From a candidate division WOR-3 bacterium (GTDB lineage: Bacteria; Hydrothermota; UBA3072): 64,000 nt of DNA. The stretch spans positions 99,954-163,953 of the forward strand of contig JBDRZZ010000003.1 of assembly GCA_039804165.1 (NCBI GenBank), read 5' to 3'. The translations under genes were made by a program, and so were the position numbers. The notes under the pieces are model-generated. The model saw nothing but the letters and a program-made list of their open reading frames with translations. It searched no databases and was not told the DNA's origin. Of this stretch, positions 51,371-55,363 are shown piece after piece (position 1 is the stretch's first letter; every line of letters begins with the position of its first letter).

Positions 51371-52606
51371 ATGGAAATGGATAATTATAAAAAAAGTGTT
51401 TTATCATCAGGAGTCACTGTCTGTTCTGAATTTGTCCCTTATGCCTCTTCTGTTGCAATTGGCATTTTTGTCGTTGTGGGATCAAGGGATGAGAAAAAGG
51501 AGAAGGAAGGGATATCGCATTTCACTGAGCATGCAGTTTTTAAAGGGACAAAGACTCGGACCGAGAGAGAAATTTCTTTCGCAATAGAGTCAAGAGGGGG
51601 TTATTTAAATGCATCAACTTCTAGGGAGTGGACCTCTCTTTATGCTCATGTTCTACCCGAAGATCTCGAGCTTGCAGTTGATGTTCTTGGAGATATGGTA
51701 GAAAATCCTCTTTTTTTAGAAGAAGATTTAGATGCAGAGAGAGAAATTATCTTACAAGAGATTAAAATGGTAAATGATTCTCCAGAAAATTTGGTTTTTG
51801 ACTATTCATTTAAAAGCACTTTCGGAGAGGAACATCCATTATCCAGATTTATATTGGGAAGGGAGGAATCTGTAAAAAGTATAAATCGTAATGATATTTT
51901 AGAATTCTGGGGAGAACATTGGTCCTCTAATAGAATTTTTGTGTCTGCTGCGGGAAAAGTTAGTCATGAAAATTTGTGCTCTCTTATAGAAAAAAGAATA
52001 AAAAGAGAAAGGGGAAATAATATAAATAGATTTTCCCCTCTCTTAGAAAGGGTGAGTATTAACATTATTCCTAAAAGAGAGTTAAAACATAAATATGTGG
52101 TCCTCTCTTCTTCTTCTTTTCCTTACACAAGTAATTTAAGATTTGGACTGCTAATTGCAGGGACTATTCTTGGCTCAGGAATGAGCTCTCTTTTGTTTCA
52201 GAGATTGCGTCAGGAATTAAATTATGTTTATGAGGTTTCCACTTTCAGTGAGTTTTTTACCGATACAGGAATTTTTGGGATATATTTTTCTACAGATCGG
52301 TTAAAGGAGACTTTAAATGCAACAAAGGATTTATTAGGTTCTTTAGAGTTTACTGAAGAAGAGGTAAACTCTGCAAAGAATAGATTGAAAGGTAATATCT
52401 TAATTTCTTTGGAAAGTATTGATAATAAAATGGAGAGGAATATTAAAGAAGAAATTTACGGTGGGAGGAGGTCTTCTATTCTTGAACTTTTAAATAAAAT
52501 AGAAAACGTCTCGATGGAAGAGATAAAAACTATTGTGGATCATTATTTACGCCCAGAAAACCTTGTTCTTACAGTTTTAGGAGAAGCCAAAAATGTTTCT
52601 TGGTGA
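51371..52606 (+). CDS. M16 family zinc protease (processing-peptidase-like)
   Basis: This 411-residue protein is an insulinase-family M16B peptidase. The inverted zinc motif is HFTEH (His 50, Glu 53, His 54), with the third ligand Glu in EREIILQEIKM about 75 residues later. GIFVVVGSRDEKKEKEGISH and ESRGGYLNASTSREWTSLYA precede and follow the motif in the usual way. The second, inactive half has LRQELNYVYEVSTFSEFFTD, matching the R/Y element. Such proteases degrade or process peptides in pairs or as homodimers. A dut gene lies near M16 genes in several bacterial groups, as here three genes on. The end overlaps the next gene by 14 bp. Confidence 0.92.
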   Translation: MEMDNYKKSVLSSGVTVCSEFVPYASSVAIGIFVVVGSRDEKKEKEGISHFTEHAVFKGTKTRTEREISFAIESRGGYLNASTSREWTSLYAHVLPEDLELAVDVLGDMVENPLFLEEDLDAEREIILQEIKMVNDSPENLVFDYSFKSTFGEEHPLSRFILGREESVKSINRNDILEFWGEHWSSNRIFVSAAGKVSHENLCSLIEKRIKRERGNNINRFSPLLERVSINIIPKRELKHKYVVLSSSSFPYTSNLRFGLLIAGTILGSGMSSLLFQRLRQELNYVYEVSTFSEFFTDTGIFGIYFSTDRLKETLNATKDLLGSLEFTEEEVNSAKNRLKGNILISLESIDNKMERNIKEEIYGGRRSSILELLNKIENVSMEEIKTIVDHYLRPENLVLTVLGEAKNVSW

Positions 52607-53777
52607 TATTTATAATTCAAGGAGATTCTCTTTATACGAATCTTTCCCTTTTAATTTTTATAAAGATAAATTTTATTATTTTATGAGTCGGGATATCCAG
52701 ATAATAAATCTTTTTTCTGTAGATCCTATAAGTATTCACCAAATAATTGAATCTGAGATAGGCTCGGAAGAAAAGATAATAAAAGAACTTAGGATCTTTC
52801 TAGAAGTTCCTGAGGATTATAAACTTCTTCTCCTTCCTAATCGTTTTGCTGCTTATTATCTTGCTTTTTTCACAGTAGCTGATGTAGGAGACGAAATATT
52901 AACCCCTGCGCCTATACCTTATTTTCTAAGACAATATGCGGATGTTTGTGCACTTACAATCAAATGGATAGAAACAAAATCTGCTGAAGACTTCGAATTA
53001 CCTTTGAGAAGGGAGGTGGAAGATTCTATTACTCCAAGGACGAAAATATTTTATTTTTCTGAACCTAATTTTTCTGGGAATATAATATATTCAAAAGATA
53101 GCTTAGAAAGGATAATTTTTATATCAAGAAATTATCAATTGTTTTTACTAACAGATGAAACTCTTTCAACTCTTTTTAGGGACAAAGAAGGGTTAATATT
53201 CACGAAGAACTTTGCTCTGAATAACGAAAGAATCATTAGAATAAATAATTTCCTAAGGGAATTCTTTTTAGGGGATTTAACAGCTTTTATTTTTCATTCA
53301 ACTTTACCTTCAAAGATTGAATTAATAGCCCATGATTTATTTCCTGTGATACAGCCTCAACTCTCTAATGTAGATTATTTTCTAAAACACTCAGAGGAAT
53401 TACTTCAAGGAAGACTTCAAAAATTAGAACAAAACAGGATTGTGCTTCAGAGCTTTTTAGATAGTAGGCCTGATGTTGTAATTAGTTACCCAAATACTAT
53501 ATCTTCTGTTTTTCTGAAACTTCCAGTTCCTAATGCTGATACTTTTGTGGAATGGTTATTGTGCGAGTATAATTGGGATAAAAGAACCGTCTTTGTTGCG
53601 CCAGCTTCTTTATTTCATTCGAAGGAATACGAGGAGGAAGGGGAAGTTTTGATTGATTATAGCTATCTCAATCCTGAAATCTTAGAAGAAGGTTTAGAGA
53701 TATTAGGAGAGGCTCTCAATCGTTATCTTGGGCTTAGTGAAAAAGGAGTGGTAAAGGATGATTTCCGAGAGGGGTAA
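52593..53777 (+). CDS. Aminotransferase-fold protein lacking the catalytic lysine (pseudoenzyme)
   Basis: The 394-residue protein aligns along its whole length with its neighbour, an aspartate-type aminotransferase, but the active site is gone. The neighbour's SPNNPTG is EPNFSGN here, DETYREIVF is DETLSTLF, and SISKKFSACGARIG is NNFLREFFLGDLTA. The PLP-binding lysine is replaced by Leu 221 and the carboxylate-binding arginine is lost. The C-terminal domain retains the shared FVEWLL ... TVFVAPASLFH pattern (FIIWML ... TTMITPADGCY in the neighbour). The frame is intact and well translated, so the protein appears to be maintained as a non-catalytic fold rather than as a decaying gene. It overlaps the M16 gene by 14 bp and the aminotransferase by 20 bp. 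Confidence 0.78.
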   Translation: MFLGDIYNSRRFSLYESFPFNFYKDKFYYFMSRDIQIINLFSVDPISIHQIIESEIGSEEKIIKELRIFLEVPEDYKLLLLPNRFAAYYLAFFTVADVGDEILTPAPIPYFLRQYADVCALTIKWIETKSAEDFELPLRREVEDSITPRTKIFYFSEPNFSGNIIYSKDSLERIIFISRNYQLFLLTDETLSTLFRDKEGLIFTKNFALNNERIIRINNFLREFFLGDLTAFIFHSTLPSKIELIAHDLFPVIQPQLSNVDYFLKHSEELLQGRLQKLEQNRIVLQSFLDSRPDVVISYPNTISSVFLKLPVPNADTFVEWLLCEYNWDKRTVFVAPASLFHSKEYEEEGEVLIDYSYLNPEILEEGLEILGEALNRYLGLSEKGVVKDDFREG

Positions 53778-54963
53778 AAATACACCTAAGTCTTCAATAA
53801 GAAAACTTATGCATTATGCAGATAAGGCTAGAAAAGAGGGTGTTTATGTTTATCATTTAAATATTGGGCAACCAGATATAAAGACGCCTAAGGTAATTCT
53901 TAATGGAATAAGGAACTTTGATGAAGAGATTTTAGCTTATAGTCCTTCTCAAGGGATCCCAGAATTAAGGGAAGCCATTACCGAATATCTAAATGAAGAT
54001 TTTTCTCTTAAAATAAACCCCGATGAAGTTTTTATAACAACAGGTGGAAGTGAGGGAATTTTATTCACTCTTCTTGCGGTTTTAAATTATGGAGAAGAAA
54101 TTTTAACTCCAGAGCCTTTCTATAGTAATTATGGACCCTTTGTTTCTATTGCGGGTTGTAAACTTATTCCTATTGAGACTTCAATGGAAAATGGCTTTCA
54201 TCTTCCTTCTTCTCAGAAAATAAAATCTTTAATAACACCTAAAACCAAAGCAATTCTTGTGTGTTCTCCAAATAACCCAACAGGCACTTTACTTACTGAT
54301 GAAGAGATGAAGATGCTTGTCGATATTGCATTTGAAAATAATCTCTGGATTTTTTCGGATGAGACTTATAGAGAGATTGTTTTTGAAGGGAAGGCCCCAA
54401 AGACCTTTTTGCAATTTGAGAAAGCTATAGATAGAATTGTTGTTATTGATTCAATATCAAAGAAATTTTCAGCTTGTGGTGCACGGATTGGTTATGTGGT
54501 TACAAAAAATAAAGAGTTATACGATATTCTTCTTAAGTTTGGGATGGCAAGACTTTGTGCTCCTACAGTTGAACAATATGCAGCTATTAAGGGATTTAGA
54601 GAACGGAAAAACATTATACCAGAGATTGTTAAGGAGTATGAGCACAGAAGGAACGTTGCTTTTGAAGAAATTGGGGAAATAGAAGGAGTAATTTATAGAA
54701 AAACAGAAGGAGCTTTTTATACAATTGTGAAACTCCCTGTAGAGAATGCCGAAGAATTTATTATTTGGATGCTAACCTCTTTTAGAAGAGATGGTAAAAC
54801 CACAATGATTACCCCTGCGGATGGTTGTTATACTTTCCCTTCCAAGGGAATAAATGAGGCAAGAATAGCTTTTGTTTTAAATGAGAAAGATCTAAGAGAT
54901 GCATTAAGGATATTAAGAGAAGGGCTTTATGAGTTTAACAATAAATATAAAAAGATTGGATGA
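53758..54963 (+). CDS. PLP-dependent aminotransferase (aspartate/alanine-type, class I)
   Basis: This 401-residue fold type I aminotransferase transfers amino groups between amino acids and 2-oxo acids. It shows YHLNIGQPDIKTPKVIL, YSPSQGIPELREAITEY, TTGGSEGILFTLLAVLN, CSPNNPTGTLLT, IFSDETYREIVF, and the PLP lysine Lys 235 in SISKKFSACGARIGY. The C-terminal arginine region follows. It resembles archaeal-type aspartate or aromatic aminotransferases, but the substrate is not certain. It overlaps the pseudoenzyme by 20 bp and dut by 35 bp, so all three should be co-translated. Confidence 0.92.
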   Translation: MISERGKNTPKSSIRKLMHYADKARKEGVYVYHLNIGQPDIKTPKVILNGIRNFDEEILAYSPSQGIPELREAITEYLNEDFSLKINPDEVFITTGGSEGILFTLLAVLNYGEEILTPEPFYSNYGPFVSIAGCKLIPIETSMENGFHLPSSQKIKSLITPKTKAILVCSPNNPTGTLLTDEEMKMLVDIAFENNLWIFSDETYREIVFEGKAPKTFLQFEKAIDRIVVIDSISKKFSACGARIGYVVTKNKELYDILLKFGMARLCAPTVEQYAAIKGFRERKNIIPEIVKEYEHRRNVAFEEIGEIEGVIYRKTEGAFYTIVKLPVENAEEFIIWMLTSFRRDGKTTMITPADGCYTFPSKGINEARIAFVLNEKDLRDALRILREGLYEFNNKYKKIG

Positions 54964-55363
54964 GGGGATACCACTACCAGAGTATCAAACTGAAGGAAGT
55001 TCAGGTCTTGATCTTTATGCTTCTGAAGATTGTATTTTACCCCCTGGGGAATTTAGAACCATCCCTACAGGTATAGCTCTTGAGATTCCATCTGGTTATG
55101 AGGGAGAGATTAGAGCAAGGAGTGGATTGGCTTCTAAGTTTGGGATTGGGATTCTTAATTCTCCAGGAACAATAGATTCTGATTATAGAGGAGAAGTTAA
55201 AGTCATTTTATTCAATTTTGGTAAAAAGGATTTTAAAATAAAAAAAGGAGATAGAATAGCTCAGTTGATTATCTCAAAGGTGGAGAAAGTAAAACTAAAA
55301 GAGGTGAAAGAACTTTCTCAAACAAAGAGAGATGATAAAGGATTTGGTTCTACAGATCTTTAG
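54929..55363 (+). CDS. dut: dUTP diphosphatase
   Basis: Dut hydrolyses dUTP to dUMP, keeping uracil out of DNA and feeding dTMP synthesis. The 144-residue protein has all five trimeric-dUTPase motifs: SSGLDLYA (1), RARSGLASK (2), GTIDSDYRGEV (3), GDRIAQLII (4) and RDDKGFGSTD (5). Length is normal. It overlaps the aminotransferase by 35 bp and is followed 12 bp later by the acyltransferase. Confidence 0.97.
   Translation: MSLTINIKRLDEGIPLPEYQTEGSSGLDLYASEDCILPPGEFRTIPTGIALEIPSGYEGEIRARSGLASKFGIGILNSPGTIDSDYRGEVKVILFNFGKKDFKIKKGDRIAQLIISKVEKVKLKEVKELSQTKRDDKGFGSTDL

Follow-up and report, generated by a model that had tools for sequence, protein, structure and literature searches.

An aminotransferase-fold pseudoenzyme retained across one class of candidate division WOR-3 bacteria, probably with a job apart from the adjoining active enzyme

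Analysis of a 64,000-nucleotide stretch of a candidate division WOR-3 genome (the window) and of the corresponding loci in related genomes revealed a tandem pair of aminotransferase-fold proteins, the first of which has lost its catalytic site and is nevertheless maintained. Because one species keeps this pseudoenzyme after deleting the adjoining working enzyme, its job is probably a separate one and not that of a subunit of that enzyme. The explanation we favour, with a probability of about 0.7, is that a tandem copy made in the ancestor of the class became a maintained fold protein whose function is independent of both transamination and the neighbouring enzyme.

Locus and predicted fold

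The locus consists of M16 peptidase, pseudoenzyme, aminotransferase and dUTPase genes, all on the + strand of the window and each overlapping the next. The features referred to below are:

51371-52606, + strand: M16 peptidase of 411 aa with an intact HFTEH motif (Pfam PF00675/PF05193); 14-bp overlap with the pseudoenzyme gene
52593-53777, + strand: aminotransferase-fold pseudoenzyme of 394 aa, intact ORF (AF2 model, structure search, loss of catalytic residues)
53106-53135, + strand: segment ERIIFISRNY (residues 172-181) of the pseudoenzyme, a helix and candidate docking surface; R173, F176, N180 and Y181 invariant in 10/10 pseudoenzymes
53256-53258, + strand: Arg222 codon of the pseudoenzyme, at the PLP-lysine column in three alignments; Lys in 4/10 orthologues
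53649-53651, + strand: Leu353 of the pseudoenzyme, aligned with the carboxylate-binding Arg386; Leu, Met or Val in 10/10 pseudoenzymes, Arg in 22/22 active sequences
53758-54963, + strand: active class I/II aminotransferase of the PRK07568 subfamily, 401 aa (NCBIfam NF005744), with all catalytic residues present
54460-54462, + strand: PLP Lys235 of the active aminotransferase
54929-55363, + strand: dUTPase (dut), the downstream gene of the same block (Pfam PF00692), found at the same place in relatives

A first-pass annotation of this DNA had described two aminotransferase-fold ORFs with intact frames and a 20-bp overlap, and both ORFs (52593-53777, 394 aa; 53758-54963, 401 aa) were recovered as such. 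Its wording that they are "fused by overlap" proved too strong: the 20 bp are specific to the window, the overlap in seven of the eight remaining pairs being 1-4 bp, with a gap of 8 bp in the last. The pseudoenzyme gene adjoins the active gene wherever both exist (9/10 genomes) and overlaps it in 8/9 cases. The junction with the M16 gene is better conserved, the end of the latter overlapping the start of the pseudoenzyme gene in 9/9 loci and by exactly 14 bp in eight of them; in the window, positions 52593-52606 encode the Trp-stop end of the M16 peptidase and, in the other frame, the first residues of the pseudoenzyme as far as its conserved Gly4. The HxxEH motif is present in 9/9 M16 orthologues.

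The AF2 model of the window pseudoenzyme (pLDDT 86.2, pTM 0.86) has fold type I architecture, and its best structural match is TM1698 (PDB 2gb3; Z 39.3 over 371 residues), which, with PRK07568, is also the best match in sequence (NCBIfam and PDB sequence search). Profile-profile comparison with the active family using hhalign gave a probability of 100 and an E value of 3.5e-50. Single-profile searches score much lower: the best Pfam match is PF00155, at 14.6 bits and under the cut-off of 19.7, and NF005744 reaches 120.7 bits, under the curated cut-off of 389 that the adjoining active aminotransferase exceeds with 528.9 bits. The two neighbours are only ~20% identical. For the very divergent orthologue of genome G009, a fold of this kind is likewise predicted (pLDDT 90). 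As modelled, the 394-aa window protein is therefore an aminotransferase fold, which has its fold and family of origin in common with the TM1698/PRK07568 aminotransferases but lacks their cofactor- and substrate-binding residues.

State of the active site

Comparison of ten pseudoenzyme orthologues with 22 active sequences from the same phylum showed that the Tyr70 loop, the phosphate-loop residues and the equivalents of Asn194, Tyr225, Arg266 and Arg386 are gone in 10/10 of the former and kept in 22/22 of the latter, the one exception being a Gly at one phosphate-loop column in G008. The ring-stacking Tyr is likewise gone in all pseudoenzymes. The alignment thus bears out the loss of the NPTG Asn and of the carboxylate-binding Arg386 equivalent noted earlier for the window protein. 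The N-terminal Ser-x-Arg residues are retained, and the Asp222 equivalent is the sole listed site residue that is invariant in 10/10 pseudoenzymes. In aminotransferase dimers the Tyr70* loop acts in trans and reaches the active site of the partner; since by alignment it is missing in 10/10 pseudoenzymes, none of them would be expected to supply Tyr70* to a partner's site.

The PLP lysine is indeed lost in the window, although at Arg222 and not, as first annotated, at Leu221; MAFFT, hhalign and the HMMER match to TM1698 concur on this register. The expectation that homologues always lack the lysine did not hold, the column being occupied by Lys in G002, G003, G004 and G005, by Arg in the window, G001 and G009, by Leu in G006 and G007, and by Asp, with uncertain alignment, in G008. 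Lysine-retaining homologues had been named in advance as evidence against a non-catalytic protein; they occur, at this one column and in four of ten genomes, but all ten have lost the remainder of the site, and for this reason the Lys does not make those orthologues catalytic. On the simplest reading of the alignment, loss of the lysine seems to have come late and to have occurred more than once, in an already dismantled family. On the aligned residues, some residual PLP chemistry in the four Lys-bearing orthologues is conceivable.

Distribution, selection and a natural deletion

Of the genomes of one WOR-3 class, drawn from four families, 10/10 encode the pseudoenzyme. In the phylum outside this class, 137 sampled genomes yielded no match at class-level profile scores; there were only lower-scoring ones, and those that were read (L010-L030) carry the active motif. 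Genome G035 gave a second profile match. A scan of 84,980 species, with one genome per species, detected the pseudoenzyme only in WOR-3 and allied MAGs, the named relatives being candidate division WOR-3, TA06 and Stahlbacteria MAGs; three Clostridium loci, matching at 24-25%, were taken as active enzymes. Identity across the class ranges from 26 to 63%. In the phylogenetic tree the ten pseudoenzymes lie on one side of a branch with support of 100/100, long-branch caveats applying inside the group, and a single origin in the class is indicated by these sequences.

Outside the class, an M16 gene lies directly 5' of an active aminotransferase gene, with no pseudoenzyme between them, in 11/29 sampled genomes. 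In four loci of other WOR-3 families read at length (L066, L067, L068 and L069) this pair follows pnp, with rpsO ahead of the block in L067 and a dUTPase gene behind it in L068, which points to the gene order before duplication. The simplest history consistent with these arrangements is that, at the base of the class, a tandem duplication occurred inside a pnp-M16-aminotransferase-dut operon. Under the proposed mechanism, the PRK07568-type aminotransferase gene of this old operon would have been duplicated in tandem in the ancestor of the class; the upstream copy would then have lost PLP and substrate binding while keeping the fold, and would have become a maintained protein with a role separate from transamination and from the adjoining enzyme. 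To our knowledge, there is no known reason for the association of M16 peptidase and aminotransferase genes. In G009, pdxJ, a gene of PLP biosynthesis (L065:3512-4231), lies directly 5' of the M16 gene of the M16-pseudoenzyme-aminotransferase-dut block and overlaps it by 13 bp; the two family f1 loci that were read have, in the place of pdxJ, a short ORF, which in L038 encodes a 4HBT thioesterase.

The pseudoenzyme frame is intact in all ten genomes. For G006 and G007, the only unsaturated pair (dS is saturated or undefined in all others), dN was 0.025 and dS 0.215 for the pseudoenzyme, and 0.015 and 0.299 for the active enzyme, corresponding to ratios of 0.12 and 0.05, respectively. The first of these values upholds the earlier view that the gene is not decaying. 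Within the family of the window, the pseudoenzyme evolves at the same rate as the M16 peptidase. At the level of sequence the protein is under purifying selection with its catalytic site lost, as a retained pseudoenzyme should be. We considered, and rejected, a relaxation of selection on the active gene within the window's genus: this gene deviates at 54/240 conserved columns, the M16 gene at 45/212 and the pseudoenzyme gene at 43/172 (Fisher p 0.78-0.89), and equal deviation in all three implies that the genus is simply distant.

The claim that homologues always sit beside the active gene holds in 9/10 genomes and breaks down in G001, the MAG Zod_Metabat.145 (94% complete), which represents the only other species of the window's genus in the sample. 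Its locus lies in the interior of a 241-kb contig and reads M16, pseudoenzyme, a 22-codon ORF and dUTPase. The 22-codon ORF (L002:2669-2737) ends like the C-terminus of the active enzyme (MSSVKGIWEILRKGLYAINNKN), and no orthologue of the active gene was found elsewhere in G001, where the best other aminotransferase is 26% identical. The pseudoenzyme is intact and 63% identical to that of the window, and the 14-bp overlap with the M16 gene survives. Relative-rate counts against four outgroups gave 29-36 unique changes in G001 and 42-44 in G000, the genome of the window, i.e., no acceleration. Constraint on the pseudoenzyme in this lineage, as judged from the sequences of a single MAG, seems to be independent of the active paralogue, and the deletion could be recent. 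The remnant retains a start codon overlapping the stop of the pseudoenzyme gene as well as the sequence immediately 5' of dut, and it may owe its survival to translational coupling with dut.

Possible roles of the pseudoenzyme

The usual explanation for an inactive fold type I partner of a PLP enzyme is that it serves as a subunit of its active homologue. In arrangements of the serine palmitoyltransferase (SPT) type, a dead subunit sits beside, and normally helps, a live one, and in glycine decarboxylase, GcvPA/GcvPB, an ancient obligate heterotetramer, only one of the two fold type I subunits binds PLP. By description, the WOR-3 pair resembles GcvPA/GcvPB in consisting of two adjacent fold type I subunits. 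The pseudoenzyme also resembles LCB1 of SPT, a fold type I subunit without the PLP lysine that stands beside its active homologue LCB2 (PMC3794620), in being itself of fold type I and adjoining an active homologue. With this precedent, with adjacency in nine genomes, overlap in eight of nine pairs, and fold and N-terminal Ser-x-Arg kept, a structural or regulatory subunit forming a heterodimer with the active aminotransferase, in the manner of LCB1/LCB2 or GcvPA/GcvPB, is an understandable proposal. However, LCB1 forms a heterodimer to which it is thought to contribute residues, whereas the WOR-3 pseudoenzyme has lost in every orthologue the trans loop that would complete the partner's site; an inactive subunit of the SPT kind would always be accompanied by the active one, and in G001 the pseudoenzyme persists without it and without faster evolution. 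We consider such a subunit role unlikely, and the first-pass proposal of a retained non-catalytic partner stands as regards an intact, maintained paralogue with a dismantled site, but not as regards partnership with the active enzyme. A joint role in the nine genomes having both genes is conceivable.

That the protein is still an enzyme, performing a different reaction with or without PLP through the remaining pocket or through Lys222 in four orthologues, could find backing in that Lys and in the invariant Asp222 equivalent. It is nevertheless very improbable, given that the PLP phosphate-binding residues, the ring-stacking Tyr, Asn194, Tyr225, Arg266 and Arg386 are gone throughout, and that the lysine column varies between R, K, L and D or an uncertain residue and hence is not selected as catalytic. 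Least credible of all is a decaying pseudogene with stop codons still to come: long branches and fast divergence across the class are what such a gene would show, but intact frames in four families, the dN/dS of 0.12 and a rate matching that of the adjoining M16 gene speak strongly against it. Retention of an aminotransferase duplicate after loss of activity is itself known from yeast Alt2 (PMC3458083, PMC5960717). Alt1/Alt2 is a recent duplication in a single yeast lineage, and its copies share 65% identity, in contrast to the far more dissimilar WOR-3 pair, with its dismantled site and class-wide bacterial distribution. No earlier description of the WOR-3 pseudoenzyme family was found in the open-access literature, which is not proof of its absence.

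Returning to a maintained protein with a function of its own, we infer that it is PLP-free and serves in binding or as a scaffold, without catalysis. As its most likely partner we tentatively propose the M16 protease, as the end of the M16 gene overlaps the pseudoenzyme start in every case seen. This overlap may reflect co-translation of partners; equally, it may only mark where the duplication landed, because M16-aminotransferase adjacency is older than the class and may simply have been inherited. A more speculative and rather doubtful extension is that the ancestral aminotransferase had a second, non-catalytic role with M16, which passed after duplication to the dead copy, now an adaptor or regulator dedicated to the protease; if true, the dead copy can outlive the enzyme. 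Segment 172-181, whose four invariant residues are variable in active enzymes, is a possible new docking surface as judged by conservation, the clustering of invariant residues on it being not significant (permutation, p ~0.06).

Overall, the earlier observation on this locus was largely correct and its interpretation is partly supported. A whole bacterial class keeps the dead copy, and a natural deletion separates it from the active gene. What the dead copy does can thereby be tested directly, the M16 protease encoded upstream being a concrete candidate for its partner. For the family itself, a scan for pseudoenzymes that relied on the lysine alone would miss 4/10 of its members.
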